Assembly: GCA_037951105.1 (NCBI GenBank)
Contig: JBAMJV010002081.1
Location: 62,001-126,000 of the forward strand
Source: Echinarachnius parma
Taxonomy: Eukaryota > Echinodermata > Echinoidea > Clypeasteroida > Echinarachniidae
Length of the DNA: 64,000 nt
Reading direction: 5' to 3'
This document shows positions 12,501 to 63,523 of the stretch, one piece after another. Both the position numbers and the translations under genes were made by a program. The notes under the pieces were generated by a model, which saw nothing but the letters and a program-made list of their open reading frames with translations, was not told where the DNA came from and ran no database searches. Position 1 is the first letter of the stretch, and every line of letters starts with the position of its first letter.

Positions 12501-14437
12501 GTTGTTGATTTGGAGATGGGGTGGGGAGGGCGTTATAGTTGTGCATGCATTTGTATCCATCCGTAACAAGTTAGAAGTTTCTTACCAAGGCGATTTCTAC
12601 CGGAAAGAGCCGGGCCGTTTCCCGTTTCGAGTGAATGTTGGACTGCCTCGTCATGATCTGATGGGTAAACTGTTTTGTTTACGCTCGAATTCGGTTGGAG
12701 TCTGGAATACCTGTTCAAGAAAGAGTATGTTTAAGAGATAACATTTGCATTTTTTGAGCGAAACCATTCAGTGATATCACTGAGCACAAACAAGGTCTGA
12801 CTAGCCCATAATAGCGATAGGCGAGTGAATTCATCTCTTTGGGAGAAAATGCTGTACATGCAGTGATGGAAATACAAATAGCTGCACCTTTTCAAAATAT
12901 TTGTTTTGAACGGACGATATTTACAAAAGACAGTAAAATAACGCTTTTCATATAGTGTGGTATATTATATAGCAATGGAAGGAGAGCAGGAAAATGGATG
13001 GGGGCGAGGAGAGAGCAGGATGTACTAGTACTGGGGAGTATAGTAGCACATTGACGTGGTAAGAAGATATGAAAAGGAGGGGAAGTTCAATAAAAGACGG
13101 AGTAAACAAATGAGAGGAGCGGTGGAGGAGGTGGGGGGGGGGGGGAGGCTTAGGGATTAGAAGGGGAGAGGGAGCATACGAATTAGGGATTAGAACGGGA
13201 GAGAAAGAGAAAGGTGTAATATAATGGATGGTGAGAGAGGGGGAGAGAGTAGACTCATTTCATACCAAGGTATATCTTTGAAGATATGATTTTGAAGTAT
13301 CACGCATTTTCTTATCATTATTTTCACTGTTTTATCGCAATTATCTCGAATTGGTAGAAATGCAGGTTTGTATGGGTGTTTGCATTCAAAGTTCAAACAC
13401 TTCAAATTTAGATCGATTATGTTCGGAATGGGATCGAGATAATGAGATGAAATAGGAATGGGGAAATGAAGTGAGGAAGGTGGTGTGGCAAGATTGGTAG
13501 AGCGCGCGCTTTCCGATCATGAGATCCCGAGTTCGAACCCTGCCCACTGCCTTTGTCCTTCAGCAAGACAATTTATCCACAATTGCTGCTCTCTACCCAG
13601 GTGTATAAATGGGGACCCGGTAGGAGGTGAAAGCCTATATGTGAAGGATCTTCTCTATGCCCATGAGCCGCTTGGAAGGAATGCTCCCCAGGGAGTGGAG
13701 ATGGTGCACACAATGTGTGCTGGTTTGCATTGTATCCTATATGACCGGGGGTAATATTATCATTGTAAAGCGCTTAGAGATGATTATCAATCACATTAGG
13801 CGCTATATAAATCGAGTATATTATTATTAATATGAGTATGCTGAAAGATAAATTAATTAAACATGTATGCCTACATAATGTATAATCATGATCATATGGC
13901 GTAAAGTGAGCATACGTATAGAGTCATTATTGATTTTCTACCATTTACCAGGTCAATTATTAATGTTATCATGTATGTCCAGTTCAAACTCCTATATTTG
14001 AGGAGAATAAACTTACCAAGTACATACAATTAATTTAAAACAAAAACGTTATATATGTTCGTACTGATGCCAACGATAAAATACATAGTAACACAATGGA
14101 TAAAAACTCTTTTTCTTGTGAAAAAATAATTATCAACGGAAATGAGATAAACCCGGGAGACCGGGTTTATTAAGTTATAATAGCAAAATAATTATACTAA
14201 CCGGTTTGCGACATCCAACTCGCCCGATCTTCGAAGCCCGACTGCACCGACATCGTGTAGTCTGAAGACACCTTCAACCTCACTTAGACGTCGTCGACTA
14301 CCGAGTCCGCCCACCACTTCGTCGGCCCCCGTGTTAGATCGATACGATGTCGTCCAGGGAAAGAAAGCGAACAACGACACGATGCCGACAAAGGCAGCGA
14401 GCACGATGAAAAGTCTTCGAGGCTTTAGTAGTCGCAT
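1..14437 (-). CDS. Galactose-3-O-sulfotransferase-like gene, 3 exons, 3' end off the window
   Basis: Family role: a Golgi type II membrane enzyme that transfers sulfate from PAPS to the 3-OH of galactose on glycolipids or glycoproteins. Three minus-strand exons (14437-14202, 1216-852, 595-1) join in phase (2 bases + 1; 1 base + 2) into about 398 residues before the window edge; the family usually has 420-490. Exon 1 gives a short basic tail and one membrane segment (residues about 9-26). Exon 2 gives the stem and the PAPS 5'-phosphosulfate loop KTHKCGSST (about residue 132). Exon 3 gives TILRSPLTLFES, the 3'-phosphate site region, and the family blocks NPLLYDLGL, EHFDESLVLLKDLMCW and YLKLNAR. 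The catalytic exons are secure. The link to exon 1 rests on phase match, topology and order, across a 13 kb intron that holds a plus-strand UGT gene and many repeats. The acceptor of exon 2 has a poor pyrimidine tract. Confidence 0.8.
852..1216 (-). CDS. GAL3ST-like exon 2 (stem repeat and PAPS-binding loop)
   Basis: Begins with a stem made of four 9-residue repeats starting VD (VDGAKPAGM, VDNAEPATM, VDGAKTVAM, VDADATRQC), then HRNLVFWKTHKCGSSTVQN, the family's nucleotide-sulfate loop. It ends FSAP plus one base at a good donor (CCAG then GTGAGC). The start depends on an AG at 1218-1217 with a weak pyrimidine tract; an AG 20 bases upstream would break the phase with exon 1. Confidence 0.8.
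2206..2557. mobile_element. Foldback MITE, family 1 (CCTGGGGGTTGTTTCAC)
   Basis: Almost the whole 352 bases fold into one hairpin: the left half beginning CCTGGGGGTTGTTTCACAGA is mirrored by the right half ending GTGAAACAACCCCCAGG. No coding capacity, so non-autonomous. Confidence 0.9.
3199..3735. repeat. Direct repeats of a dispersed GACGTCATA family around a short palindrome
   Basis: 3199-3250 and 3677-3732 share GACGTCATAT, AAGARAACCC and GGTTRTTTCTGACTA. Related stretches with GTCATAATATTAAAGGACC recur near 11405, 44872 and 46892. Between them, 3354-3500 is an imperfect hairpin around ATGAACCTGTAGGTTCAT. Confidence 0.6.
3952..4250. mobile_element. Foldback MITE, family 1, second copy
   Basis: Inverted ends GGGGGTGTTTCACAAAGATC and its mirror. 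The inner sequence is related to but more diverged than the 2.2 kb copy. Confidence 0.85.
5402..5575. mobile_element. hAT-like MITE (CAGTGGCGTAG ends), with G-runs
   Basis: Ends CAGTGGCGTAG and CTATGCGCCACTG, with two internal poly-G runs. The flanking 8-mers share only their last four bases, so the duplication has decayed. Confidence 0.7.
5904..6447. mobile_element. TTTAAAGGG-ended MITE, family 2
   Basis: Inverted ends TTTAAAGGGGTAGTTTAG and ACTACCCCTTTAAA, both followed inwards by TTTTGGTA-like sequence. An internal 'GAGGGCGC' block recurs in other copies. Confidence 0.85.
6442..6898. mobile_element. TTTAAAGGG-ended MITE, family 2, abutting copy
   Basis: Shares its left TTTAAA with the right end of the 5.9 kb copy and ends TATTATCCCTTTAAA. 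The internal sequence aligns with its neighbour (AAACTTTATTTG, AATATCAATAAAT, GAGCGCCCTCTTGTG). Confidence 0.8.
7266..7392. mobile_element. Hairpin element (CAACGAAATTCAATAAG arms)
   Basis: Near-perfect hairpin of about 55-base arms, with an inner GGTGATATTTCGGCC/GACGAAATATCACC stem. A shortened relative lies at 37331-37385; both are followed by the same TTTTCTATACATTTC tail. Confidence 0.85.
7805..7810 (+). promoter_or_regulatory. Possible TATA box of the UGT gene
   Basis: TATAAA lies 167 bases before the UGT start codon, which would give a 5' leader of about 140 bases. The surrounding DNA is AT-rich, so a chance match is quite possible. Confidence 0.3.
7977..9569 (+). CDS. UDP-glycosyltransferase (UGT family), intronless, 530 aa
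   Basis: Family role: an ER-membrane enzyme that moves a sugar from a UDP-sugar to small lipophilic acceptors. Full length for the family (about 520-540). Residues 1-25 are a signal peptide. The catalytic His of the GSH motif is residue 39 (VGKGSHFYLSG) and its partner Asp is D153 (VIYDTIW). The UDP-sugar signature runs from about residue 357, with HGGHNTFYEALYHGVP at 376-391 and GDQ at 399-401. The C-terminal helix (about 489-509) is followed by a basic tail ending KSKTE, a KxKxx ER-retrieval signal. The ATG sits in a strong context (ACCATGG). Oddities: the usual W-x-P-Q of the signature is replaced (SWLSLND), and usual HGG-x-NS is HGGHNT. It lies antisense inside the first intron of the sulfotransferase gene. 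The Gln of GDQ is what glucosyl/glucuronosyl enzymes have; the ceramide galactosyltransferase UGT8 has His there. The substrate is unknown. Confidence 0.95.
   Translation: MASRTIVGCAFSFACLLLMINRSAAANILMNAMVGKGSHFYLSGAIGEQLLQRGHNITFLVSNAFVDQARSSRYGNMFHFEVFTHPYPVDEVHEMFESLGQAFFKPKGILSNPSLDAQKVLARARFEDCKALFDDEKLLNRLRSSNFSAVIYDTIWVCGALVAEELGVPHFAVVAFPGPCFYTVSEGSGFNAALLPSLFTSFSNKMNFFERLTNTFAYIFSQTVASHVVLDPYIHLTERFDDISHPVYIKKRSKIWLVNSDFVAEYPCALSPNVIPVGGLTVRDSGELPSDLEEFFQGSGVPGIIICAFGSFFTFSDDHLPLLRAFSDAFGRLPQRIVWQLKETPPFPFPPNVRIQSWLSLNDVLGHERTKAVFYHGGHNTFYEALYHGVPTVTMPILGDQGRQARKSVELGLGLRVDKDLTADDVFNALHEITTNSSYASRAKRLSATFRDRPMKPAERAAFWVDHSIKYGADYLEISMDHLNWFQYYLLDVIAFIAAIVMATIFIIVKCVRCIYRRTCGARNSKSKTE
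9618..9623 (+). terminator. Polyadenylation signal candidate for the UGT gene
   Basis: AATAAA lies 49 bases after the stop codon. Another AATAAA at 9565-9570 overlaps the stop itself, which is probably too early to be used. Confidence 0.4.
10044..10122 (-). repeat. tRNA-like head of a SINE (or decayed tRNA)
   Basis: Minus strand has an A-box-like TCAGTAGAGC, a short anticodon-like arm, a B box GGTTCGAGTCC with a T-arm, and an acceptor stem (AGCTTTC with GAAAGCC). The anticodon stem does not pair well, so I read it as a SINE head, not a working tRNA. Confidence 0.5.
10516..11260. repeat. Tandem repeat, about 182-187 bp unit, interrupted
   Basis: CAGCCTTTTGACAAGGCC-type starts at about 10516, 10704, 10886 and 11238. 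Units carry GAGCTGCAGCCATGGGGCC and AAGATCACTAAGTCAGGTTG. The third unit is split at about 10984-11166 by an insert related to 3080-3190 (GTAGGAAATACACGGGGGCT, TTGCCCCCTAAT). A partial unit recurs at 11460-11496. Confidence 0.85.
11498..11665. mobile_element. Foldback MITE, family 3 (AGGGCCCCGTTGCAG)
   Basis: Ends AGGGCCCCGTTGCAGAAAG and its mirror, arms of about 60 bases, loop with AACCAATCAGATTTGC. Other copies lie at 52228-52365 and, as a left half, at 40504-40600. Confidence 0.9.
11670..13470. other. GAL3ST-like intron 1, right part, no gene seen
   Basis: AT-rich. 11690-11770 is related to 16960-17045 (GATAGTCGC, TTCGCCAGTTGTTCC, CGTCAT), so it is a dispersed repeat. 12960-13260 is purine-rich with a G-run at 13133-13145. 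No exon supported. Confidence 0.5.
13478..13828 (+). repeat. tRNA-derived SINE, full length
   Basis: tRNA-like head with A box (GGCAAGATTGGTAGAGCG) and B box (GAGTTCGAACC), then a conserved body (CCTTCAGCAAGACAATTTAT, ACCCAGGTGTATAAATGG) and the tail AAAGCGCTTAGAGATG ... GGCGCTATATAAAT followed by ATT repeats. This layout is typical of SINEs in echinoderms and other marine animals. Confidence 0.85.
14202..14437 (-). CDS. GAL3ST-like exon 1 (cytosolic tail, membrane anchor, stem)
   Basis: ATG at 14437 opens MRLLKPRRLFIVLAAFVG, a basic tail running into a hydrophobic segment, then a hydrophilic stem. This is the layout of a Golgi type II glycan-modifying enzyme. The exon ends AACCG before GTTAGT, leaving two bases of a codon, which matches an acceptor at 1217-1218. 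The frame is also open a few codons upstream (ACC, GCA), but this ATG is the first in frame. It could instead belong to another type II enzyme whose later exons lie elsewhere. Confidence 0.55.
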
Positions 14438-15436
14438 TGCGGTCAATTTTCCATGTCCTCTCCATGCATTGTACTATGCATATACTTCCATTCGTGTTGG
14501 ATTTTTTGAGGATCAGAAATATTTCATCTCCATTCGATCGTATTCATTTTTCGATACGTATTTCATGTTAAATATCACTTCTGATTCGATGACCTCATAA
14601 AGTATAAGCACAACAAAAGGTTATCAAAACGGACTTCGTGCAGATAGCAGCTGATAAAATATGATAAACAGAGACATGAGAGATAAGACAAATGACTGTT
14701 GGATATACTACAGTATTGTAGTACATGTAGTAACATTATACTTCCTATAGTTTGTTGTAGTATAGTATCAACGGGACTTACTCTCGATTTCCAGCAGGAA
14801 AAGCTCGATGACCCCATAAGCACAACCAAAGTTGATCAAAACAGACTTCGAGTAGATCTATAGCAGCTGACGGTTTAGGTAAACCAGGGAAATGGGATAC
14901 CACCTCCGATCCCTGGCCTGGGTAAACAGAGATTACACAAATCACTGTTGGATAGACTACGATACGTATATAGTAGTAACATACCTCATTACTATCTTCC
15001 TATAGTTTCTTGTAGTTATCAACGGCACTTACTCTCGATTTCCAGCAAGATAAGCTCCTGAGCTCCTATTATCTGGCTAGTCGCGACTCGTCTCGCTTGA
15101 TATTTCAGACGTGTACATGTACAGTGTATACATCCATATTATATCCATACATCCACAGCCATCCGTTCCCGTAAAATGCAACCAGAATCGGTGATACATG
15201 TCTGCACTCTGGCAAACCAATCATTCCTTCCTTTCCTTTCCTTGCAACATGTGCAACCTTGGTTGCTGGCTGCCCGCTGGCTGCTGCTAGTCGGTCTACA
15301 CCCATTTGGGCTACTCCCATACATATTTCGTCTAACCGTGGACCCTACTGGGTATGGGTCTAACTATAGATATTAAGACGAAAATAAAAGTATATACAGC
15401 CTTTAGTAGATGAGTATACAAAGACAACAATCAAGA

Positions 15437-17939: not shown

Positions 17940-18294
17940 TTAAACGGATCTAGTAACTTTGTTGACATGTGCAAAAAGTGATGAATGGTTGATAAAATGT
18001 GCATTGTTGTGGTCTGATATGTCTACTGAGTAATGTGTGAAAAGTTCACGTTAAATGGATGTTTTATATGGCCGAGAAATGAACGAAAATGCAAAGTGCA
18101 CTGACTTTGTACACGGCTATGATTATCCACTGGATAGTTAGTAAATCTGAACACTTCAATCGTAAATATCTTTTTAACGAAAGAGAAATCCGAAAAACCA
18201 AAACATGTCCCATGCTTCTCAAGAAGGTATGAGAGAACCGTTGGAGTTCCAAGTAAGTTTTGAGGATTTGGACAATGTTACTAGATCCCTTTAA
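17940..18294. mobile_element. TTAAAGGGATCTAGTAAC element, family 4
   Basis: Ends TTAAACGGATCTAGTAAC and GTTACTAGATCCCTTTAA. It starts about five bases after the 37-bp minisatellite. Inner blocks ATGTGCAAAAAGTGATGAAT and TTTTGAGGATTTGGACAA are shared by all copies. Confidence 0.88.
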
Positions 18295-18797: not shown

Positions 18798-19375
18798 TAG
18801 AGCCTTAAAATCCATGGCACTCAAAGTGATAAAGGGACTCCAAACTGCAATAGTCTCTAGTCTGTTTTGTATATCCAAAAGATTCTTAAAAGTATCGACA
18901 GTTTTTGCTTCAACGACTTTCTCTGGCAAGCTATTCCAGTCTGATACCACTATCTGACTAAAAGATTTACTTCTAATGTCCCATCTTGATCTCTCCTTAT
19001 ATAGTTTGTGTGCATGCCCCCCTAGTGGTTGCATAAATTGCTGGAGTGAAGAAAAGTTCACTGGAGATTCCAAGCTTCCCATTCATCAGTTTGAATACTG
19101 TAATCATATCTCCACGGAGTTTTTCTTATCTAAATACTTCGATCGTACATATCTTTGTAACGAAAGGGAAATTTGAAAAACCGAAACCTGTCCCATGATT
19201 TTATTGTTAATACGAATACAACAAGGTATGAGGGAACCGCGAGAATGAAAAATGTATTTTGAGGATTTGGACAATGTTACTAAGTCCCTTTAATGTATAT
19301 AATGAAGAGTACAGGTCCCAGAACACTCCCCTGTGGATTCCCGCTTTGAACGCGGCACCAGTTGGGTAACAATTA
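18798..19375 (-). pseudogene. LINE (CR1/Jockey-like) reverse transcriptase relic
   Basis: On the minus strand the piece at 19375-19310 reads SGNPQGSVLGPVLFIIYI, the conserved PQGSxLGP block of non-LTR reverse transcriptases. After a 180-base insertion of another repeat, 19113-18798 reads LRGDMITVFKLMNGK and later the typical end ERSRWDIRSKSFSQIVV, SDWNSLPEKVVEAKTVDTFK. A frameshift near 19015-19020 separates them. Sequence between the blocks is missing, so it is a deleted, dead copy. On the plus strand an A-rich tail (19500-19524) ends a different retroposon. Confidence 0.85.
19114..19293. mobile_element. TTAAAGGG element, family 4, half copy inside a LINE relic
   Basis: The right half of the family only (from GAGTTTTTCTTATC to AAGTCCCTTTAA), splitting the reverse transcriptase relic, so it arrived after the LINE. 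Confidence 0.85.
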
Positions 19376-28037: not shown

Positions 28038-28750
28038 ATGGCTTGTGGTGAAACCGATTCCAAAACAATGGCAGGGTCTGGAGCTGGTGGGGGACGTGTA
28101 CCATGGTCTACAGTGTCGGGAGCTGGTGGAGGACGTGTACCATGGTCTGCAGGGTCGGGAGCTGGTGGAGGACGTGTACCATGGTCTGCAAGGTCGGGAG
28201 CTGGTGGAGGACGTGTACCATGGTCTGCAAGGTCGGGAGCTGGTGGAGGACGTGTACCATGGTCTACAGGGTTGGGAGCTGGTGGAGGACGTGTACCATG
28301 GTCTGCAAGGTCGGGAGCTGGTGGAGGACGTGTACCATGGTCTACAGGGTTGGGAGCTGGTGGAGGACGTGTACCATGGTCTGCAGGGTCGGGAGCTGGT
28401 GGAGGATGTGTACCATGGTCTGCAGGGTCGGGAGCTGGTGGAGGACGTGTACCATGGTCTGCAGGGTCGGGAGCTGGTGGAGGACGTGTACCATGGTCTG
28501 CAGGGTCGGGAGCTGGTGGAGGACGTGTACCATGGTCTACAGGGTCGGGAGCTGGTGAAGGACGTGTACCATGGTCTGCAGGGTCGGGAGCTGGTGGAGG
28601 ACGTGTACCATGGACTGGAGCTAGCTGGTTGTGCACGGGATCACAACATGGTCTTTGTGTAATGTCTGTAAACACTGGAGAGTTCCACCCGGGTGTAAGG
28701 ATAGCTCGATAGTTTGTCACTGGCAGGATATGTAGGAAGTTCTGTTTCAC
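27917..28750 (-). CDS. Pro-rich repeat exon, 14 x 13 residues, function unknown
   Basis: A strong acceptor (CTCTCTGCTCCCAG) opens VKQNFLHILPVTNYRAIL, a 45-residue unique start, then 14 near-identical repeats of HGTRPPPAPDPAD and a non-repetitive tail to the stop. The repeat is a 39-bp DNA minisatellite, a multiple of three, so it is open in several frames on both strands, which makes the ORF weak evidence by itself. The acceptor and unique start argue for the minus strand. The tail overlaps the plus-strand zinc-finger fragment, so at most one of the two is real there. Confidence 0.4.
   Translation of the reverse strand: MKQNFLHILPVTNYRAILTPGWNSPVFTDITQRPCCDPVHNQLAPVHGTRPPPAPDPADHGTRPSPAPDPVDHGTRPPPAPDPADHGTRPPPAPDPADHGTRPPPAPDPADHGTHPPPAPDPADHGTRPPPAPNPVDHGTRPPPAPDLADHGTRPPPAPNPVDHGTRPPPAPDLADHGTRPPPAPDLADHGTRPPPAPDPADHGTRPPPAPDTVDHGTRPPPAPDPAIVLESVSPQAIHSESCSCLHILIRSFSVKAQALSFAVIGSSTLSARFIKS
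28075..28625. repeat. Minisatellite, 39-bp unit, 14 copies
   Basis: Unit GGGTCGGGAGCTGGTGGAGG + ACGTGTACCATGGTCTGCA. Few substitutions between units and no length changes, so reading frames stay open throughout. Confidence 0.95.
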
Positions 28751-34261: not shown

Positions 34262-34564
34262 AAGAAGAAGAAGAAGAAGAAGAAGAAGAAGAAGAAGAAG
34301 AAGAAGAAGAAGAAGAAGAAGAAGAAGAAGAAGAAGAAGAAGAAGAAGAAGAAGAAGAAGAAGAAGAAGAAGAAGAAGAAGAAGAAGAAGAAGAAGAAGA
34401 AGAAGAAGAAGAAGAAGAAGAAGAAGAAGAAGAAGAAGAAGAAGAAGAAGAAGAAGAAGAAGAAGAAGAAGAAGAAGAAGAAGAAGAAGAAGAAGAAGAA
34501 GAAGAAGAAGAAGAAGAAGAAGAAGAAGAAGAAGAAGAAGAAGAAGAAGAAGAAGAAGAAGAAG
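34262..34564. repeat. (GAA)n microsatellite, about 100 pure units
   Basis: About 303 bases of uninterrupted AAG/GAA. It is open in all frames as poly-Glu, poly-Arg, poly-Lys or their complements, so those ORFs mean nothing. Confidence 0.98.
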
Positions 34565-34869
34565 AGGTGTAAGACAGACCGTTCGACTGATCATGCTGGC
34601 AGTGGCCATGAGTGGCCAAGACTGCCGCTATTCCACACGGGCCCTCTTTCAATCAAAATATGGTTTTACAATGGCCACAAGGATTCATTAAGATGAAATC
34701 AGGTTCAATGAGACCTGAGTTGCAGATGTTGAACTAAAAGACCACCATTATTGATTCGGAACATGAAACATACACAAAAACAAAGGAAAATATGCCAGAA
34801 ATCTAGATCAAATTCCAATCTATCGCGGCCCTAGCAGCACTCTACATCGGAAAACGGAACTTGGGTTGT

Positions 34870-47213: not shown

Positions 47214-47614
47214 TTAAAGGGATCTAGTAACTTTGTTGACATGTGCAAAAAGTGATGAATGGTTGATGCAATGTATAAGGTACCTCAATGTATATTGTTG
47301 TTATCTCATATGCCCACAGGGTATTGTGTGAAAATTTCAAGTCAAATGGACATTGCATGGCCAAGTAATGAGCAAAAATGCAAAGTGATAGTCACTAACT
47401 CACTGCACTCACTTTGTACACAGTAAGAAAAACTCTACCAGAGTTTTTCTTATCTGAATACTTCGATCGTACATATCTTTGTAACGAAAGGGAAATTTGA
47501 AAAACCGAAACCTGTCCCATGATTTTATTGGTAATACGAATACAAGGTATGAGGGAACCGCTAGAATTAAAATTTTATTTTGAGGATTTGGACAATGTTA
47601 CTCAGTCCCTTTAA
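47214..47614. mobile_element. TTAAAGGG element, family 4, full copy
   Basis: 401 bases, ends TTAAAGGGATCTAGTAAC and GTTACTCAGTCCCTTTAA. The middle has a stem GAAAAACTCTACCAGAGTTTTTC. Confidence 0.88.
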
Positions 47615-51529: not shown

Positions 51530-51639
51530 TCATATTTCTCTTATTTCCAAATCGATGTGCACTCTCTTCTTTCCGTTGAAGAAGATGAAGGATCGCTGGG
51601 GAACAAACTGGTTGTCCGCACTCCTCTTCACAATCGAGC
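51530..51639 (-). CDS. ITM2-like exon 6, intact copy (cleavage site and peptide)
   Basis: The acceptor is TTTTTACCAG. It completes a Gly codon and reads GSIVKRSADNQFVPQ, then RSFIFFNGKK and a basic-acidic end at a TGA. The IVKR-S site lines up with IQKR-E in ITM2B. The predicted released peptide has 30 residues, an aromatic core and no Cys. Confidence 0.82.
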
Positions 51640-54600
51640 CTGGTAAAAATATCAAAATGAAACAAGAAAAAGGTTTTTAAAAATGCATGAATAATGCTAA
51701 ATCTATAACATGTAAGAGGGCTTTAGAGTTTTATTGGTACAAGCCGATGAGACACATTTCTTTCCGCTGAAGAAGACGGAGGATCACTTGGGGAAAACTG
51801 ATTGTCCGCACTCCTCTTCACAATCGAGCCTGGTTAATGAAAATTTAAATGAAACAAAGAAATAGGTAAAAATACATGAATTATGCAATATCTATAACAT
51901 GTAAGAGGGCTTTAGAGTTTTATGTGTGCAAGCTGATGTGACACATTTCATTCCGCTGAAGAAGACTTGACGATCGCTGAGGGACAAACTACCTGTCCAC
52001 ATTTCTCTCCACGATCGAGCCACGTAAAAACATTAAAATGAAACAAGAAATACGTAAAAAATACATGAATCCTGTTGCATCAGCAGAATGAAACAGCCAG
52101 GCTATCCCTTGAGCCTTTCTTTCTTGCGATGGCAGGTTGCAAACAGTGTGTAAATCTGTGGTTCACAGTCCACTCTGTGGAGAGCATTCCTTTCATGACA
52201 ATGGACCCTCATTCAAGTAAAAAGATAAGGGACCCGTTGCAGAGAGATACAAATTGTAAGTCAGTGCACATTTCAACCAATCAGATTTGCCCATTTAGAA
52301 CACATGATCTGACTTAGAATTAATTGTAACTTACAATCAATTGTATCTCTTTCTGCAATGGGGCCATTGACACAAACACACACATAAAACACAAATTAAA
52401 GGGACTACAATGTCTAGATGGCCTAATTTTCACAATTCGGCTCTCTATATGTGATTTTTCCCGAAGAAAAAGAATTTGGCAGTCATTTCTCATGAAATCA
52501 ATCAATTTTGGGGTAATTGGTAAATATCTAATTGTCCTGGGAATGCCCCTTTTAAATCGCCAAAATGTGACGTCATCTAAAGAACGGACTAATGAACTAA
52601 AGTCTGTAGATGACGCGTCATGACGTAAGCCAATGTATTGTCAATCACACGTCGATCACGCCGCCGATTCCGGACCCTAAATGTGGGTGGGGCGTAAACT
52701 GGCTGCTAAGTGAGATTTGGCATCAGAAAACTAGTCTTAAATCACTACTGTTTTTATTTTCATGGATTTTTTTTCGGCAGACCTATGTTTCAAGTCATCA
52801 ACTATGGAATAAGTGTCAAAGTACGTTGTATTCTTTAGGTCCTTTAAGTTCAAAGAGTTACCTCGGCTGGTTTCCACGACCTCGGAAGCCTGGAGCCAGA
52901 AGGTGGAACGCTGGAAGCAGTGGTCCCTGACAGAGGTGGCCATGAGGGTCACATCTATAGCCGGACCTTGAACCTCCATCCTTGCATACACAGTGTCCAG
53001 TTGGGTCAGGTGGTCACCATTCTGAGGGTTGGGAAAAGCAAACAAACAGATTAATAATAGAAACAGCCAATTGAGTCATGATTAAAACATGCATTAAGCA
53101 GTGGTCCCTGACAGAGGTGGTCATGAGAGGTCACATCTACAGCAGGCCCTTGCACCTCCATCCTTGCATACACAGTGTCTAGCTGGGTCAGGTTGTCACC
53201 ATTCTGAGGGTTGGGGGGGAAACAGAGCAATAAATAATTAATACAAACAAATCAAACAGTGATTAAACCATGCATAAATCAGTGGTCCCTGACGGAGGTG
53301 GCAATGAGGGTCACATCTACAGCAGGCCCTTGAATCACTATCCTTGCATACACAGTGTCTAGCTGAGACAAGTGGTCTCCATTCTGAAGGTTGGGACCAA
53401 CTCAACCCGATCCGGCTGGTTTTCAAGCAGATCGGGTCAGTGTGCGCTGCCTCACAACTCGGATTTTGCCCGTCGGAAGTCAGTTAGGTCCGATCCAACG
53501 TGTTAACTTGGCCTACATGTAGATATGATATGGCAACTTTTCCAACTACCTTAAACCGGGGTGACTTTGGCCCCTTTTTTAGACAAATGTATTTTTATCA
53601 AGCCTAACTTTTTAGAACAAATTTCTTAGTGTTTCAAAAATATTCTCATAGGGTAATGTACAGAATTAGAAATTAGTGAGACTTGATGAAGATACATCCT
53701 TCTCAAAAAGTGGCCAAAGTCACCCCGGCGGTCAAAGTCACCCCGGTTTACGGTACACTGCTTTTTACCTTGTAGCCTTTCATGAACTCCAGCACATTGC
53801 GAGGGCTCTCGAACAGGGAGTTGTTGTGCTTGAGCAGGAAGCAGTTTTCATCCACGTTGTCACGGAATGCAGTCAGTTGCTGAACGAGAAAGGAGAGAAA
53901 TAAGACGAGTAACACATTAAATTCACTAAAAGAAAAATGTACATTTTAATTGGATAACACTAATCAAGCCAGGTTATTTTGGCTATGCTATAGGCTATAG
54001 CTGAGGGATGGGGGGCTGATTCCTGTGACTTTGTAATGGCATACCGGATCATAGCAAATGTAGTCTATAAAGATCTGTTTTTCTTCCTCCCCCCCCCCCC
54101 CTCCCCTCCCCCTGTATTCATTGCTTAAAAATTGTACTGCCATATTAACATTAAACAATCATACTAAATACAGCAAAATCATACTACTTGGCAGCTCTTT
54201 TTTGTTAAATTTATACATTTTTTATTCAGCATTTCTATAAAAAAAAAGGTGACTTACGATCCTGAAGTCAGACATGACGGTGATGTGGTGCTGGTTGCTA
54301 AACTCTGGACAACCAACAGTCAACGATAGATTCTTTCGATTGTTTTCAATACATTTTTTATTCAGCATAATTTATAAAAACAAAGGTGACTTACGATCCT
54401 GAAGTCAGACATGACGGTGATGTGGTGCTGGTTGCTGAACTCTGGGACATCGATCATCTCAATATCCTGCTCCTCCTCAACAGTGATGGTCTCTGGGTAG
54501 GTCTGGTTGGAGTCGGCCTCCGGTCCGTACATCACCTGACAGAACATGGCTGGCTGGCTGCGGAACTCCTGATAATAGAGAATACAAAAACAAATCAATG

Positions 54601-57600
54601 TAAATCGAATACATTATCGTCTTAAGAGTAAATTCCTAGTTCTCTTCATCAACATCAATCATCTAATTATCCTGCTCCTCCTCAACTGTGATGGTCTCTG
54701 GGTAGGTCTGGTTGGAGGTAGCCTCCGGTCTGTACATCACCTGACAGAACATGGCTGGCTGGCTGCGGAACTCCTGATAATAGAGAATACAAAAACAAAT
54801 CAATGTAAATCGAATACATTATCGTCTTAAGAGTAAATTCCTAGTTCTCTTCATCTTCCATAGTGATAGCTGATAGTGATAATAGTCTCTGGGTAGGTCT
54901 GGTTGGAGGTAGCCTCCGGTCCGTACATCACCTGACAGAACAGGGCTGGCTGGCTGCGGAACTCCCGATAATAGAGAATACAAAAACAAATAAATCAATG
55001 TAAATCAAATTCATAATCATCTGAAGAGTAAATTCCAAGTCCTCTTCATCTTCCACAGTGATAGCTCATAGTGATAGTCTCTGGGTAGGTCTGGTTGGAA
55101 AAAATCCTTGGTCCGCACATCACCTGACAGAACAGGGCCGGCTGGCTGCGGAACTCCTGATTACAGATCTGAATTCTGAAGGAATGAAAACAGTCAAACA
55201 AAACTGTGGAACTAGAGACAACTTTCTTCTAAAATGATATTGTTTGAACTTTGAAGAGTACATTCGCAGTTCCCTTCATTCTCCATAGTGAGTCTCTGGT
55301 TGTAACAATTGTTTAAAGGGACTTAGTAACATTGTCCAAATCCTCAAAATAAAATGTTAATTCTAGCGGTTCCCTCATACCTTGTTGTATTCGTATTAAC
55401 AATAAAATCTTGGGACCGGTTTTGTTTTTTCAAATTTCCCTTTCGTTACAAAGATATGTACGATCAAAGTATTCAGATAAGAAAAACTCCCCCGGAGTTT
55501 TGAAACCGTGTACAAAGTGAGTGCAGTGAGTTAGTGAATATCACTTTGCATTTTCGCTCATTTCTTGGCCATGCAATGTCCATTTGACTTGAAATGTTCA
55601 CACAATACCCTGTGGACATATGAGATGACAACAATATACATTGCATCAACCCTTCATCTCTTTTTGCACATGTCAACAAAGTTACTAGATCCTTTTAAGT
55701 TCATACAGTATGACAAGCAGTACTGATAACAAGCCTCCACACTAACCATTTTCCTTACTGGCCCATTTGGGCAAGTAAAATAACAACTTTAATAATTTTA
55801 ATTGCCTGAACAAATATCTAATTGCCTGCTACTTCTAGATGAGATTTAAACCTAAAAAATAACATTATTCTCTTATAGTTGACCAATAAACAACTAAGCC
55901 ATTTATGACATTTTTTTTGCCCGACACCAATTTTTACTTACCCCGGGCAAAAGGGCAAGTGCTAGTGCCGAGCCCCGAGTATGTGCAAGTTTAATTCATA
56001 ATGCTCTGAATTAACATCAGTGTCATGGTTGAATGGCAGTTTCATAGGAAAACTGTCATAAAAGTTACAGTATGTTAATTTGTGATAACTTGCTGACCTT
56101 GTAAACATTGTAGGTTTGATTGTTTAGTCAAAACAGACTAATTATGACTTCACACAGGTCTTCTATGAAAATACTTTCAGGATGTAAATGTTGGGGCAAT
56201 ATGGGGTCTATTTCCTGTACAATTATGTGAAAATCATAACATTGTGTGCTTAAACACTTTAAATGCTTGACTGCTCATCCCTAAAAATACATTGCTGTAC
56301 ACTCGGCACAATACAGGAAGTAGGTATAATTTTTGGTTAATTTCATGCTGCTATTGTTTTAGCATAGTATCTATTGCACTTTCCAAGTCACAACTTGTTG
56401 AACATGATAAATACATTTGTGGAGCACCACTTCAATAGTTATAAATAATAGATCTGTATCTTTCACATTCACTAACCAACTGCACCTACATAACAAGCAT
56501 AGTAAGTACATGTAGCATACATGTATTATGCCATATTATATTCCACATACTAAGAATCTTGCTCTACGATTGGTCAAAAGTTAATCACGTGATGAAATAT
56601 AGATTCGCCCATCATTGATGGGAGAAGAAAAGTTCGGTACACTGTGTAGATATTTTGGGTGAAAGTGCGTTGCACTCACTAGATAGTCGGTAAAAGTGCG
56701 TTGCACTGTGTAGATATTCAATTGTTCGCGCGCAAGTATATACGCGTGCGCGCGTTAGTGCGCAGAAAGGTAGCGCGCTGATGCGCAACATTTTCGCGCA
56801 GCTACGCTTAATAGACAATGGTATAAGCGTAATCTTGTTCATGTGCAGGATTGACGAAATTAAAATAAAATTGCTCAATATTCCAAACTGTTTAGCCCTT
56901 TGTGTTAGTTATAGGTTGTTTGTGATCAAAATAATTGATGTGGAATATAAAGCAAATAATCACCTTTTGGTTTCAGGCGATGGCAAACTATCACTTCCTC
57001 GGCGATCTGAATGTATACGCTATCTTTCCTCAGCTTCGCTTCGGAAAGATAGCTACATCCAGATCGCCTCGGAAGTGATAGTTTGTCCAATCACCTTCAC
57101 CAACGGTAATTATTTGCTTACTATATAGACATGGAAATATAGCATAGTATGTTATTTATAACATTATAGTTCTTTCACTTCAGATTGAACATGTAGTCAT
57201 TCTAAAAACTGAAAATGTAATTCTACTCGAGAACAGACCAGTATATGGAAAATTATGAATGTTTCAAAAAGGGGAAGTGGGATAAGTTTCTATTGATGCG
57301 CTGTAAGAAAGGAAAGTAATTCAAGGAAGTTGAGCATAGTAATTAAATCACACTAACAATACCCAAGTTGTTAATAAATACCTTCGCTTTTGATGACAAT
57401 ACACGGGGGAAAAGTACGATTTGTCCCCATAGCATTTAAAATCGCCCTCGTGAGCCAATACACAGAGGCGAAAAAAACGTTTTTCAACAAAATCGCCCTC
57501 GCTGTTGTATATCACATTTTTTAGTTAGTCCCATGCATGCAAAATGTTCTTTTTATTAGAATGAGAATGCTTGTCTTCAGTATAGGGTAAGATCTTTATA

Positions 57601-60600
57601 ATCAGTCATTACAATGTCTGAGAAAAATAAATATAAAACAAAATGAAAACAAAATTTAAACAAGACAAAAAAGCCCCTGTGAGCCCCAAAATAGCCCTCG
57701 TGATTATTTACATGGGGGCAATTTTTCTTTCTAAATAAAAATAAATAGCCCTTGTGAAATAAAAAGTATTTTTGGGGTTTGCATAATATAGTGAGTTAGT
57801 GACCACCTACATGTAAAATAAAATAAAAGTGGTCACTGTAGATACATGTAGGTGACAGATGGGCAGGTTCAGAACATGGTTTTCTCTGTAGTGATCTTTC
57901 TTGTGACCACTACAGGCAGGTTGGCTGAGTACTACATGTACAGACAGTTTGCTGCTAAGACAGGGTTGCACTGTACTCAAAGCAAAAAGGGTTGTTGCTA
58001 TGCAAAACGTTTTTTACAAATTTATAGGAAATTGTATGTAGACTTCAATTTCCTTTATTGTCAGAGATTACAACTTGGCAGTAACTGAGAGATACAATAA
58101 GCAAATAATTGGTGTACAGTTTGTGTAACTTTCAAAATGTAAAGACCCAGAGGGAAAGTTAATAATAGCTCAAACTCTCTATTCTAGGGTATCCCATTAA
58201 ACCTGATTCTGAGCATGATGGTTAGGATCCATGCACTTGATGGAAACTTTCCACATGGGTGACTTTGAAACATTCAAACTTAGAGCGAGAGTCCATATTA
58301 AAGGGACTTAGTAACATTGTCCAAATCCTCAAAATAAAATTTTTAATTCTAGCGGTTCCATCATACATTGAACATTGTATTCGTATTAACAATAAAATCA
58401 TGGGACCGGTTTCGGTTTTTCAAATTTCCCTTTCGTTACAAAGATATGTACGATTGAAGTATTCAGATAAGAAAAACTCCCCCGGAGTTTTTCTTACTGT
58501 GTACAAAGTGAGTGCAGTGAGTCAGTGAATATCACTTTGCATTTTCGCTCATTACTTGGCCATGCAATGTCTATTTGACTTGAAATTTTCACACAATACC
58601 CTGTGGACATATGAGATAACAACATTGCATCAACCCTTCATCACTTTTTGCACATGTCAACAAAGTTACTAGATCCCTTTAAAAGTGTTCAGGATTAAAA
58701 GTTTGTGGAACTCGAAATCTAAGGTGTTTCACTGAGGATCATGCAACTTTACATTTATTCAATTCAACAGTTAAACATCTTTAATTGGTCAAAATCTGAA
58801 CACAATTGTAAGTAACTTAGTTAACCCATTCACTACGAGATTCTGAAATCCCCATAGACTTTGTACATGGCCCACGTGGTTCCCTACTTCCCGTACTAGT
58901 AAGCGATGGGTTAAGTGTACTTTGGTTGACTTTGAAACATTCCTTGGAACTAAACAAAGAGACTTTGAATCAACTTACGGTTCTGGTTGCCATGTAGAGC
59001 AGCCCAATGAGTAGAAAGCTGAGCGCAACGGTGACGGTGCAGACAGCAGTCAGGGCCCAGGTGCTGCACGGCCGGTTCCGTCTCACCCCCTGGATACGAA
59101 CAGCGCCATCTTGGGCCTCGCAATCACAGCGACAGTCACAGTTTGCATCCCTGCAGTCACTGTTGGTGCACTCACTACATCTCTAGAAAAAAGTAATTAA
59201 GGAAGGTAGAATTTAGAAAGCTGACAGATTTTATTTTTTTTAAAGTACGGTAATTCTTATGTAGGATAATGTAACTTGAAAACTTGTAAATTTAAGCTGT
59301 CAAAATAATCTGTTTTACATAAAGCAGGGACATTTGTTTATCATTTTTTTTTGTGGGAGCTACTTTTCAAGCTTGCCTGCATGAAAATAGCACTCTCAAA
59401 TTTGTTTTGCAATTAACTCTCGACCTTGCAATTTAACAGCCTGGGCACTTTCAGGCACCCTTTTTAGCATTTTGGGGGTTAAAAGGCTCCCTTGGATTTT
59501 TTCACTGCCCCAATTCATATGAAAGCGAAACTATGACTTAGTTCAGAAGAACGTTTGCGTGAGAAATGTAACATTCGGACAAATTGGTATAAATCATACT
59601 GTTCTGAGTCTTACATACATGCATTACATTCCGACTATATTTGCTTTTAAAAGGTAAACATAGAATAAATGGCAAATTATTTTACAAACTTCTTACCTAA
59701 ACTTTTAGTGATAAGGCATTGTACTTCTATTTTAGAAATTATACATAGTCGATTGGGTGAATATTTGGCAATAGGCAAAAAAGTTAGAATTAAGAGCACC
59801 TTTTTTGCACCTGCTTTTAGATTGTACGAAAGATTTTGTAGCATGCATTTGCCGATGTACAATAAATACTGTATGCATGCAAGTGTGTAATGAATGCTAG
59901 CGAGCACACTCACACATGCAAGTACATTGTAATATTGTGTACTTGCATGTACATCGAGTCGGCAATTGCACACTGCAAAACCTTTGGACTATCACACAGC
60001 ACGTGCCAAAATATATAAATTTGGACTTTTTGGCCCATTGCCATAGAGTACCGAAGCTGTGACATCATAAAAATCTATTTTTAGAATTTCTCAATTTGAA
60101 CTTCATTTTCCGAAAGAGCATACAAAATAATGTCCAATTGTTGAAAACCAATCGAAAATTGTAAGTATTGGCTGAGATATGCCCAATCAGTGTTATAGAC
60201 TATAACTTATAGTGCTCTGGACCTGGTTCATAAAGTTACGAACCAGAGCACTATAACACTGATTTCCTATAATAATTGACAACAAATTCATTCGGATGGG
60301 CATACTGTACTGTATGTATCTCAGCCAATACATACTGTAACATTATTCAATTGATTGTCAACATTTGGACATTATTTTTTATGCTCCTTCGGAAAATGAA
60401 GTTCAAATTTGGAAATTCTAAAAATAGTGTTTGATGACGTAACACTTCACCACTTAGTATTGTCACTGGATCCCAATTGGCTACAGGATATTGACTTTAG
60501 ATACAAGTACAATTCATTGTAGTTCAGAAGAAAATTTGTAGAGACATTTCTAGATTGAACATTACCATTTGGACATTTTTGTTAACATGATATACTAAAC

Positions 60601-63523
60601 GTTCTGATGCAAAACTATGCATTTTCATCAGACTGTTTTTTGCCGACAGAAAACATGAAATAAATCAGACCAGAATGTATTTCTTACCCAAATTTTTTAC
60701 ACGATTCAGAATATGGCTGGGATCAATATCTTTATAATACCATTACAGAGGTCAGACTCAGAGTCAATTGAGAAATTGAGAAATATTAAATAGAGACACT
60801 TCCAATGCTGGACACTTCTTACCTTGTAAACCAGGATCATCAACAACTATTTAAAAACATCTTTTGTACATTTTGAAAAACTAAAAAAGTATTAGAAAAT
60901 AAGCATTTAATTTTTTTTTAAAGCTTCAAATAAATGTGGGATCCAACATAATAATTATTTTGATCGCATATATTTATCGATAATTCAGCTGTTTCTGAAC
61001 CAATTTTGATAGAATAAAGTTGATTCTGTCATTAAAATTGTATGCTCTTTCAAATCTCACGCTCAGTTTTGTTTTCATTACCTCACAAAAAATATTTCTT
61101 GAAGCGCCCTCTATACCAAAACTCATCTATGGTTGAGAGACCCCCACATCGGCACCCTAAAACATTTCCGACAGTTTTAGACTTAAAAATCGTACAAATT
61201 TCATAAAACTTTACTCACACATTGAGAAAATGGTGCAGATTCCGATGCGATGATCAGATTTGCGATTTATAATTTATATTTTGAGATATCGACTTCGAAC
61301 GCGCGCGTTGTTTTTTGGCTTCACGAGTTCGAAGTGTTTTTATTACCGGCACCCCCTCAACTCTCATTGACAACGCACGCAACTCAAAATTTCTTGTGCG
61401 ATGTTGCCTTGTTGGTATTATTTTACAAATTTCACAAAAATATTCGTAGCGGACGATAAACGCATTATTTCTCCTCGAAATGTCGACCAGTGCAGTTTCT
61501 AAGGGTAGCGCGCATCATCACATGCGCGATTTTTCACAACACGCGCAAAAACAAATATTACGCGGGGTGCCGATAATAAAAACAGTGCCGATGTGTAGTA
61601 CACCTACCATACCTGGTATGTTAATTTTTATTTGCATGCAAAAATAAATACAGCTGACAGACACTGACATTCAACATTTCAAGACAAACAAAGACTCGGC
61701 GCCAATATTTAATAATATATTATACTGTTGTTATATGGCGGTGGAGGTTATAGCACGGAATATTACATCCCGAGGGATTTAAAATGCTATTGTGGGAAGA
61801 GTAAATAAGTCCCGAGACGAAGTCCAGGGACTTATTTTCTTCACAAAATAGCATTTGAAATCCCGAGGGTAGGAATATTCCGTGATTTTCCCTGACAACA
61901 AATTGAACAACTGTTTTATCATCTGACTGTCAAACACAGGGGTGTAATATTGCCATGGTATATCCAAAAATATTAATTATTATAACACCGCAGCGGCATG
62001 TACTGTATTTACTAAGTCATGTGATAATAATTAATATGAACCAGCTCATCACTCATGTTCGACAGAAATATACCGTCTCTACATTGGGTTTACTCTTATA
62101 TCGAATTTTTTACCCTACCGACCGACCACATCTACACTGTACAATGGTTCTGGGAGAACCATTTACCTTACACTAGTGCTAATCGCGGTCGAAGTAACTT
62201 TTACGTTTTTTCTCTCTCACATACCTTCTCTTTCTCACTTCTTTTGCACTCCATCAATACATGAATGTATTGTGCCACTTTTTTATTATTTGTTATTATA
62301 TAAATGCGAATACAATACGTTCTGCTATACTCACCAAATCTGCATTTTCAGCGGTAAAATGTTGTGGGTCCGGCTTCCTTCGGGAATTGGCAGGAAATGG
62401 CCGCGTACACACGCCACCTATGGCTGGCTATGGCATAACATATCGCGCGGTACGGTAGCTCTATATCGATATCATGTAAACATGAAAGTTCGTTTACTAG
62501 TCTTTTACAAAGCGTACTTGAATGTATGTTGGTAGCAGAGCGTGATGACAGGCTTCACATAATTACGGCGTTAATAGTCAACGTCTTGATGGAAGATCAA
62601 CATCCGATCTCGAATGGTCAACACTCGAAGAGACCAGCGTCACGTAACTAACATCGCCAGGCAATGCATTGTCTCGCATGTACGTAATTGTGGCGTAGAG
62701 AGCGCACTCTGACTCGGACCAGAAAAATACTGAGTCGCCATTATAACACAGGAAGCATGCTAGAAAGAGGCTTGATACGTTGATGTATCTTCGAAAATGG
62801 GCTTATTTCTACCTTTTTGCCAATATTTTCCCAAATTAAAGTGCCATCAGGAGTAAAATGGTGAGTTAATGCATTCAACATGTTTCTTAGAGTATGAATG
62901 TGAAGCATAATTTTCATGCTTTGGTTGTGTTAAGTTAACATAATTTTCGGAAGATGTAGTGCATGGTTCCCTTACGTTCATACCACGTAAGTGAATGGCA
63001 ATGAGTGTATGTGTGCGACCGACCAGCTTGCAGAATATGAGTGACAGGATGACAGGGGTGTCGATCTGTCCGGGAAACACAATACATTGTGGGGCCGGGG
63101 GCGAGCTATTGTTCACAAACAATGCTCGCACTCGCCCCCCCCCCCCCCCCCCCCCCCCAATGCATTGTGTTTTTCGAACAGATCGACACCCCTGGAATAT
63201 GAAGACTGATTTTCGGTCTACAGACTACAGTTCATGCAACCGCGAATTCAACCAACGACCGCAGAAATCAGCTGATGAGCTGCCTGAGCGCCGCGGCGCT
63301 CACACATGTAAACAACACACGCAATCGCATCGCGGTCACTCTTTCCGATTTACGGAAATCATGCGACAAAATAAAATCGTATAAAAATTGGTGATTTGAA
63401 TCATACCTGCGCCTGTGGCTGGAGGGGTTGTGTCTGAGAAACTTGTGTAGAATTTGTGTTCGAATCTGCTTTGGATTTCGGGGAATAAATTCTCCCTTCC
63501 GTGACGGGCTTGTAGATCGTCAT
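51530..63523 (-). CDS. ITM2/BRI-like BRICHOS membrane protein, 6 exons, 291 aa
   Basis: Exons 63523-63407, 59182-58979, 54568-54395, 53879-53769, 53021-52862 and 51639-51530 join in phase (0,0,0,0,1) into one open frame. Order: N-terminal cytosolic region with a Cys-rich stretch (about 40-62), RRNR, a membrane helix (about 83-103), a linker, and a BRICHOS domain (about 145-242). BRICHOS hallmarks are D162, C178 and C237. The 16- and 59-residue spacings match what I remember of ITM2B, as does the sequon N184-N-S six residues after the first Cys. A dibasic IVKR-S site near 258-262 would release a 30-residue peptide, like the BRI peptide. The family chaperones its own C-terminus in the secretory pathway and is cut by furin. 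The human homologue also has six exons, as I recall. Odd: exons 3, 5 and 6 have decayed tandem copies, and the released peptide lacks cysteines. The family call rests on motif alignment by eye. Confidence 0.85.
51723..51829 (-). pseudogene. Second copy of ITM2-like exon 6, alternative C-terminus or relic
   Basis: A good acceptor (AACCAG) and an open frame: GSIVKRSADNQFSPSD and on to a stop at 51725-51723. Relative to the intact copy it lost one base after QF, so the peptide after the cleavage site is different and Ser/Pro-rich. It could be a live alternative last exon; decay looks likelier. Confidence 0.7.
51958..52021 (-). pseudogene. Third copy of ITM2-like exon 6, dead
   Basis: Homologous over the cleavage-site region, but the acceptor AG reads TG, the KR codons are changed (VER), and a TAG follows within 11 codons. 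192 bases from the second copy. Confidence 0.8.
52228..52365. mobile_element. Foldback MITE, family 3, second copy
   Basis: Ends AGGGACCCGTTGCAGAGAG and its mirror, with the same loop block CCAATCAGATTTGCCCA. It lies 3' of the second exon-6 relic side of the ITM2-like intron 5. Confidence 0.88.
52862..53021 (-). CDS. ITM2-like exon 5, intact copy (end of BRICHOS)
   Basis: 53 codons plus one base. Acceptor CCCTCAG, donor CGAG then GTAACT. It holds the second BRICHOS Cys (RDHCFQRSTFWL). Reading through the donor would add about 40 unrelated residues; splicing to exon 6 restores a family-like C-terminus. Two truncated copies lie upstream in the gene. Confidence 0.88.
53095..53203 (-). pseudogene. 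Second copy of ITM2-like exon 5, frameshifted
   Basis: Keeps the acceptor and about 110 bases, but an extra base in the DVTLMAT region shifts the frame, and homology stops at the Cys codon, so it has no donor. 182 bases from the intact copy. Confidence 0.85.
53277..53383 (-). pseudogene. Third copy of ITM2-like exon 5, truncated
   Basis: The frame is open from the acceptor to RDH, where the Cys codon TGC reads TGA. It lacks the 3' part and the donor. 180 bases from the second copy. Confidence 0.85.
53769..53879 (-). CDS. ITM2-like exon 4 (BRICHOS core)
   Basis: 37 codons, phase 0 on both sides (GTTCAG; AAG then GTAAAA). It encodes the first BRICHOS Cys (DENCFLLKHNNSL) with a sequon right after it, then the RNVLEFM block that parallels RNLLELL in ITM2B. 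This exon is single copy. Confidence 0.9.
54255..54311 (-). pseudogene. 3'-half copy of ITM2-like exon 3
   Basis: Repeats the last 57 bases or so of exon 3 (PEFSNQHHITVMSDFRI) with its donor GTAAGT, but lacks the 5' half. An AG just before it (GTCCAG) would give a 47-base exon, which breaks the frame. Confidence 0.8.
54395..54568 (-). CDS. ITM2-like exon 3, intact copy (linker and start of BRICHOS)
   Basis: 58 codons between TTATCAG and ATC-GTAAGT. It carries an acidic run ending EEEQDIEMIDVPEF that parallels the EEEEVEFISVPVPEF block of ITM2B, and the conserved BRICHOS Asp (VMSDF). A sequon (NQT) lies at residue 128. Four damaged relatives flank it: three upstream in the gene and one 3'-half fragment downstream. 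Confidence 0.88.
54657..54773 (-). pseudogene. Second copy of ITM2-like exon 3, decayed
   Basis: Starts at the same acceptor (TTATCAG) and matches exon 3 closely through the acidic run, then hits a stop after EEEQDN. It has no 3' half and no donor. It sits 205 bases from the intact copy and carries duplicated upstream intron sequence as well. Confidence 0.85.
54880..54964 (-). pseudogene. Third copy of ITM2-like exon 3, acceptor lost
   Basis: Homology covers the first 30 codons or so. The acceptor AG has become GG (TTATCGG), so it should not be spliced. 191 bases separate it from the second copy. Confidence 0.82.
55072..55156 (-). pseudogene. Fourth copy of ITM2-like exon 3, decayed
   Basis: Same start (GAGTTCCGCAGCC) after an AG, but the middle has drifted (CGPRIFSNQTYP) and it runs into a stop (TGA) beyond the homology. 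192 bases from the third copy. Confidence 0.8.
55313..55698. mobile_element. TTAAAGGG element, family 4, in ITM2-like intron 2
   Basis: Reverse orientation to the 47.2 kb copy. Ends TTTAAAGGGACTTAGTAAC and GTTACTAGATCCTTTTAA. Confidence 0.88.
55700..58297. other. ITM2-like intron 2, repeats only
   Basis: 57400-57760 carries repeated 'AATCGCCCTCGTGAG' and 'AGCCCCTGTGAGCCCC' blocks related to the 3.1 and 11.0 kb inserts. 56690-56810 has a GCGC-rich patch (CGCGTGCGCGCGTTAGTGCG). No exon supported. Confidence 0.55.
56951..57119. mobile_element. Hairpin element (AGCAAATAATCACC arms)
   Basis: About 169 bases folding on themselves: GCAAACTATCACTTCC, GGCGATCTG and CTATCTTTCC are mirrored around CAGCTTCGC. 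It lies in ITM2-like intron 2. Confidence 0.85.
58298..58682. mobile_element. TTAAAGGG element, family 4, second copy in ITM2-like intron 2
   Basis: Same orientation as the 55.3 kb copy and very similar to it, with an intact central stem (AAAAACTCCCCCGGAGTTTTT). Confidence 0.88.
58979..59182 (-). CDS. ITM2-like exon 2 (Cys-rich region and membrane helix)
   Basis: 68 codons. The acceptor is TTTTCTAG and the donor ACC then GTAAGT, both good. A cluster of eight cysteines in the first 21 residues (RCSECTNSDCRDANCDCRC and on) lies on the cytosolic side and might be palmitoylated or bind metal. Then come RRNRPCS and a hydrophobic helix ending LLYMATRT. The Cys cluster is not something I know from vertebrate ITM2. 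Confidence 0.8.
60055..60445. mobile_element. Foldback element in ITM2-like intron 1
   Basis: About 390 bases: AATTTGAACTTCATTTTCCG is mirrored by GGAAAATGAAGTTCAAATT, with an inner stem TATTGGCTGAGATATG / TATCTCAGCCAATA and a loop stem CTGGTTCATAAAGTTACGAACCAG. Confidence 0.85.
61752..61897. mobile_element. Hairpin element in ITM2-like intron 1
   Basis: CACGGAATATTACATCCCGA and AAATGCTATTGTG are mirrored downstream, with an inner ATAAGTCCCGAGACG / CGAAGTCCAGGGACTTAT stem. Confidence 0.85.
63053..63194. mobile_element. CAGGGGTGTCGATCTGTCCG element with poly-C
   Basis: Ends CAGGGGTGTCGATCTGTCCG and CGAACAGATCGACACCCCTG. The interior has ACACAATRCATTG on both sides and a C-run of about 20. 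It lies in ITM2-like intron 1, about 210 bases past the first exon. Confidence 0.85.
63407..63523 (-). CDS. ITM2-like exon 1 (cytosolic N-terminus)
   Basis: ATG at 63523 opens MTIYKPVTEGRIYSPKSKAD, then a Ser/Thr/Gln-rich run to residue 39. The donor is GCAG then GTATGA, phase 0. No upstream in-frame ATG was seen. The segment is hydrophilic with no signal peptide, as expected for a type II protein. Confidence 0.75.

Follow-up and report, generated by a model that had tools for sequence, protein, structure and literature searches.

Within a window of 64,000 nucleotides from the echinoid Echinarachnius parma (contig JBAMJV010002081.1, positions 62,001 to 126,000), the minus strand carries an ITM2B-like gene of sea-urchin type that encodes a BRICHOS protein in six coding exons. 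Three acceptors and one donor of this gene are duplicated locally in tandem. The positions of the exons and of their copies, counted from the first letter of the window, are given in Table 1, where copies are numbered with increasing distance from the working copy (c1).

Structure and identity of the ITM2B-like gene

The six exons, when joined, form an open frame of 291 residues ending at a stop codon. The product of exons 2-6 matched a Strongylocentrotus purpuratus protein with 56% identity over 98% and also matched an L. pictus protein. A Diadema antillarum relative (P0026), named integral membrane protein 2B-like, was added by profile search; overall, protein identity to the relatives from these three species was 56-58%, which suggests a sea urchin that is not closely related to any of them. 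A BRICHOS domain was detected in the same product with 35.2 bits (Pfam cut-off 25), and the solved ITM2B chain 8rnu_A (Integral membrane protein 2B) was matched with an E-value of 3e-11. Exon 2 encodes a hydrophobic stretch, which was taken by eye as the transmembrane anchor. The predicted protein shares with ITM2B (BRI2) and BRICHOS genes the organization of a one-anchor membrane protein with a BRICHOS domain and a KR site before the C-terminal peptide, which we take to be a furin-type site. The predicted exon model makes the echinoid ITM2B-like gene intact and agrees with the original prediction of a single ITM2-like gene. A pseudogene was thought unlikely, since all six exons are open and match related proteins. 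The exon arrays described below are a feature of the gene studied here; its ITM2B relatives were compared as proteins.

Table 1. Coding exons of the ITM2B-like gene and the copies of their boundaries
Feature	Position	Strand	First exon base	Characteristics
Exon 1	63407-63523	minus		39 codons; located by tblastn (queries: the model, S. purpuratus P0001); donor CAG|GTATGA
Exon 2	58979-59182	minus		donor ACC|GTAAGT
Exon 3, trace of fifth copy	55252-55291	minus		80% over 40 nt
Exon 3, decoy c4	54965-55156	minus	55156	AG retained; pyrimidine tract weak (7/16); stop
Exon 3, decoy c3	54774-54964	minus	54964	AG changed to GG; stop
Exon 3, decoy c2	54569-54773	minus	54773	AG kept; in-frame stop; donor-like CAG|GTGATG at +33
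Exon 3, working copy c1	54395-54568	minus	54568	174 nt
Exon 3, donor-side duplicate of exon end	54213-54308	minus		donor GTAAGT after 54258; without acceptor
Exon 4, single copy	53769-53879	minus
Exon 5, decoy c3	53204-53396	minus	53383	AG kept; Cys codon changed to stop
Exon 5, decoy c2	53022-53203	minus	53203	truncated exon with 1-nt insertion; AG and pyrimidine tract retained
Exon 5, working copy c1	52862-53021	minus	53021	160 nt
Exon 6, decoy c3	51830-52070	minus	52020	AG lost; early stop
Exon 6, decoy c2	51640-51829	minus	51829	AG kept; 1-nt deletion shifts frame
Exon 6, working terminal coding exon c1	51530-51639	minus	51639	110 nt, including stop

Three acceptor-side arrays and one donor-side duplication

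When the window was compared with itself, a check of the kind proposed together with the original prediction, direct repeats appeared locally at 51554-52070 (exon 6), 52915-53396 (exon 5) and 54447-55167 (exon 3), and the arrays were thereby recovered. They are not due to chance: the matches had E-values of 1.9e-22 to 0, and no local arrays were obtained in any of five runs in which the window was shuffled in 12-nt blocks. The predicted copy numbers (four for exon 3, three each for exons 5 and 6) and the single state of exon 4 were reproduced. Acceptor-to-acceptor periods were 205/191/192 bp for exon 3 and 182/180 bp for exon 5, as predicted, and 190/191 bp for exon 6, for which 190/192 had been claimed.

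Each unit runs from the end of the intron across the acceptor into the opening stretch of the exon, and the units are arranged directly head-to-tail. The copied part comprises the first 122 nt (c2) or approximately 87 nt (c3 and c4) of the 174 nt of exon 3, the first 107 of the 160 nt of exon 5 and, with a blurred edge, the first 73-92 or so of the 110 nt of exon 6. The remainder of each period, approximately 75-117 nt, is upstream intron, which bears out the claim that the copies carry flanking intron. Comparison of the arrays with each other gave no hits at E-values up to 1, short motifs at the unit edges not being part of this search. Copies of the arrays were absent from the rest of the 64-kb window, and within this range nothing points to a dispersed element as their origin. 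Together with the unequal ages given below, these results agree with three separate local arrays.

At exon 3, a further pair of repeats was found at 54213-54308 and 54349-54445 with a period of 136-137 bp. Its unit comprises the end of the exon and the donor, and the working copy is the 5′ one (54349-54445). The 3′-half fragment of exon 3 that had been counted with the exon 3 array is thus present, but it belongs to a separate donor-side duplication with a period of its own. Likewise, the statement that the 3′-most copy survives holds for the three acceptor-side arrays and not for this pair. In the acceptor-side arrays the units stop inside the exon, so that only the last copy is joined to the remainder; on the donor side the polarity is reversed, and polarity therefore follows from geometry. 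The rule is that a copy survives if it has stayed connected with the remainder of its exon. The like polarity of the arrays, which had been taken as a sign of a shared mechanism, is predicted by unit geometry alone.

State of the decoy copies

None of the seven decoys is followed in line by the downstream remainder of its exon. All seven (7/7) run into an early stop or a frameshift on reading through, and the acceptor AG is lost in two of them (at 54964 and 52020) and kept in the other five. This agrees with the lost AGs, stops, indels or truncation of the original prediction. Cassette or mutually exclusive exons were rejected, since every decoy is incomplete and carries stops or frameshifts. 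The acceptor of exon 6 c2 is intact and was considered as the start of an alternative C-terminus, but the 1-nt deletion breaks the conserved frame and this possible start was judged fortuitous.

Divergence and history of the arrays

Jukes-Cantor (JC) distances of the exon part from the working copy, in order from the nearest decoy outward, were 0.059/0.110/0.179 for exon 3, 0.081/0.158 for exon 5 and 0.145/0.285 for exon 6; the c1-c3 value of exon 6 was taken from the multiple alignment, as ungapped pairwise counts are inflated past an indel. Divergence thus increased with distance from the working copy in all three arrays, a trend to which a slowly evolving working exon may contribute. The intron part showed the same trend at exon 3 (0/66 differences between c1 and c2, 6/62 between c1 and c3) and a weak one at exon 6 (13/65 vs 16/65). 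Intron distances of exon 5 c3, with a repeat 13 nt upstream, and of exon 3 c4, with uncertain upstream homology, were left out of the dating. Judged by the exon part, the arrays are of unequal age, the newest exon 3 copy standing at 0.059 and the newest exon 6 copy at 0.145. In exons 3 and 6 no excess of differences at third codon positions was found, as decay predicts.

Exon 3 c2 is identical to the working copy over the last 82 intron nt and the first 42 exon nt (-82 to +42), followed by eight substitutions from +43 to +117. Such a pattern suggests that exchange or conversion took place and stopped within the working exon. The exon 3 array adjoins a dispersed repeat (55313-55698) with relatives at four other places in the window (58298-58682, 47214-47614, 19116-19293 and 17940-18294; 73-94% identical). 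The 5′-most exon 5 copy, c3, stops after 13 intron nt, where similarity to another repeat begins (53397-53460; one other place, 78%).

Proposed decay of the junction-spanning duplications as intron

The probable reading is that tandem duplication took place locally four separate times across exon-intron boundaries of this gene (at three acceptors and at the exon 3 donor), and that the extra copies are decaying as intron. Since every unit includes a single splice junction and no more than a piece of the exon, the extra copies are incomplete as exons. By exon definition, splicing is expected to favour the junction of a complete exon, and the spliceosome would accordingly keep to the junction that is still joined to one, these being the junctions presumed to be used in RNA. 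The extra copies would then become intron sequence, evolve nearly neutrally and decay, while existing arrays may occasionally grow or be homogenized through unequal exchange or conversion. In this reading, the polarity common to the arrays would be the result of a filter, duplications being tolerated where the surviving junction leaves the mRNA unchanged, and would call for no special mechanism.

Several observations do not fit this explanation smoothly. Five of the seven decoys keep their AG and the acceptor of exon 3 c2 is identical to the working one; the decoys are therefore not necessarily passive throughout. In the exon 5 array, the copies resemble each other more closely in their exon half than in their intron half (8/104 vs 19/72 differences, p 0.001), and exon 5 c1-c3 showed an excess of third-position differences (p 0.009, one of 12 tests). 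It is possible that the exon 5 pattern reflects conversion or past coding use, either of which would fit it better than simple decay. Finally, that three different exons were struck is mildly unusual and somewhat rarer than chance (p 0.0014 with the gene body as reference, 0.008 with its 3′ part). The corresponding values for three units all touching exons were 0.0027 and 0.023, and all of these enrichment tests were post hoc.

The clustering of arrays at the gene lies within chance. At offsets of 100-500 bp, the window contains 16 local arrays, of which four lie at the ITM2B-like gene. For four starts within 2.9 kb, the scan p-value was 0.30 with 16 arrays in total, 0.11 with 12 and 0.055 with 10; all three totals were tried, since the definition of an array is a choice. 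The claim that three such events in one gene are not ordinary is thus mildly borne out for the number of different exons struck and not for clustering. The unit size cannot be regarded as special to this gene either, since an array with a period of approximately 181-190 bp is also present at 10515-11299, where it overlaps no reading frame of at least 90 amino acids.

A shared process as an alternative

A sequence- or chromatin-linked process, for example template switching of nucleosome length at exon starts, might have acted repeatedly on this gene. The units are indeed similar in size (136-205 bp), three of them cover an acceptor and they affect three different exons with the post hoc probabilities given above. 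We nevertheless consider such a process unlikely. The array at 10515-11299 has a similar period without a long reading frame, the clustering is not significant, and three acceptor-side units against one on the donor side make no clear bias. Similarity between the arrays was absent at the E-value limit and within the scope of the search described above.

Possible birth of a microexon and known parallels

It is also conceivable that several of the acceptor-spanning duplications stand at different stages on the way to introns or microexons. The youngest exon 3 decoy, c2, would be such a case: through its intact acceptor and the motif CAG|GTGATG it might already be spliced in some transcripts as a 33-nt in-frame microexon, lengthening the stretch from membrane anchor to BRICHOS by 11 residues. 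The motif lies 33 nt past the acceptor and in frame in all three exon 3 decoys. A donor-like GT in the copied piece of exon, with an acceptor supplied by the next copy, is the arrangement expected for intron gain by tandem duplication. In an approximate donor matrix the motif scored 8.0 bits, compared with 5.6-6.1 for the donors modelled at exons 2, 3 and 4, 8.0 for exon 5 and 8.3 for exon 1, and it ranked within the top 1.7% of the 752 GTs in the gene body. Moreover, differences between the working copy and the exon 3 decoys were fewer in nt 1-39 than in nt 40-88 (0 vs 5, 1 vs 8 and 2 vs 12; p 0.06, 0.04 and 0.02).

However, the working exon 3 carries the identical CAG|GTGATG as protein code, and descent explains its presence in the decoys. 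Exon 3 c3 has lost its AG, the tract of c4 is weak, and the low divergence of c2 runs on into the intron, pointing to recent exchange. No such insertion was found in P0001 and P0026, the two relatives that cover the site (P0026 being the one Diadema isoform compared); P0002 begins inside it. Donor-like candidates at exons 5 and 6 reached 3.4-6.5, and the 6.5 candidate does not keep the frame and belongs to a copy that lacks the AG. On balance, we hold a birth of this kind to be improbable.

A published precedent of like geometry is known from potato, where such a duplication in an RdRp gene made a new intron, as proven by RNA reads, with the donor recruited from the copied piece of exon (PMC4974935). 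The units of both genes comprise the 3′ end of an intron, the acceptor and the start of an exon, with a GT donor motif in the exon piece. The potato case is a two-copy duplication, and a second duplication of 83 bp lies inside an intron. The gene described here differs in having three arrays of three to four copies and a donor-side duplication, mostly decayed. In Drosophila, novel intron positions have arisen via tandem duplication (Lehmann et al. 2010, PMC2891723). In both systems partial exon duplications serve as raw material for changes in gene structure; the Drosophila duplications affected coding sequence with an AG/GY proto-splice site and copied no existing acceptor, unlike those described here. 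Among the titles and abstract openings listed by a search that covered part of the literature, none concerned a gene with several such arrays.

The junction-spanning duplications of the ITM2B-like gene are real and form an orderly, if slightly unusual, set in which the birth of a microexon is a concrete possibility. With four such duplications of graded age and both polarities, the gene offers a small natural experiment on which of several duplicated junctions the spliceosome selects, and on the frequency with which copies of this kind are put to use instead of disappearing.

Regulated poison sites and assembly artefacts

Alternatively, the decoy acceptors could be regulated poison sites for unproductive splicing, whose use would add stop codons and lower expression. 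The five retained AGs and the stop or frameshift in each read-through are what such sites would show. Yet two decoys have lost the AG, and retained ones are expected by chance in young copies; we regard regulated poison sites as very improbable.

An assembly artefact from haplotypes or mis-joined reads is scarcely credible for the arrays as a whole. Exon 3 c1 and c2 are 96% identical, which lies within the range of allelic difference in sea urchins, and for this pair collapse or haplotype duplication may apply. The other six decoys differ from their working copies by 8-24% in the exon part and carry private indels, making such an origin unlikely there, and two arrays end beside dispersed repeats.

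Other local repeats and features of the window

The array at 10515-11299 lies on the downstream side of a UDP-glucuronosyltransferase-like gene that is read in a single frame (7941-9569; closest proteins from Diadema antillarum, 56%). A two-copy local duplication was found at 14604-15057, with pieces 80-82% identical at offsets of 212 and 249 and no reading frame of 90 amino acids. It adjoins a minus-strand reading frame at 14192-14473, and by eye each copy has a donor-like site on the same strand; it may be another exon-edge duplication, located in an untranslated exon. A run of 101 perfect copies of AAG is present at 34262-34565, and a 39-bp minisatellite (14 copies at 95%) at 28071-28617 has several open frames on each strand. 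A minus-strand frame at 799-1311 encodes a partial galactose-3-O-sulfotransferase domain (63.8 bits).

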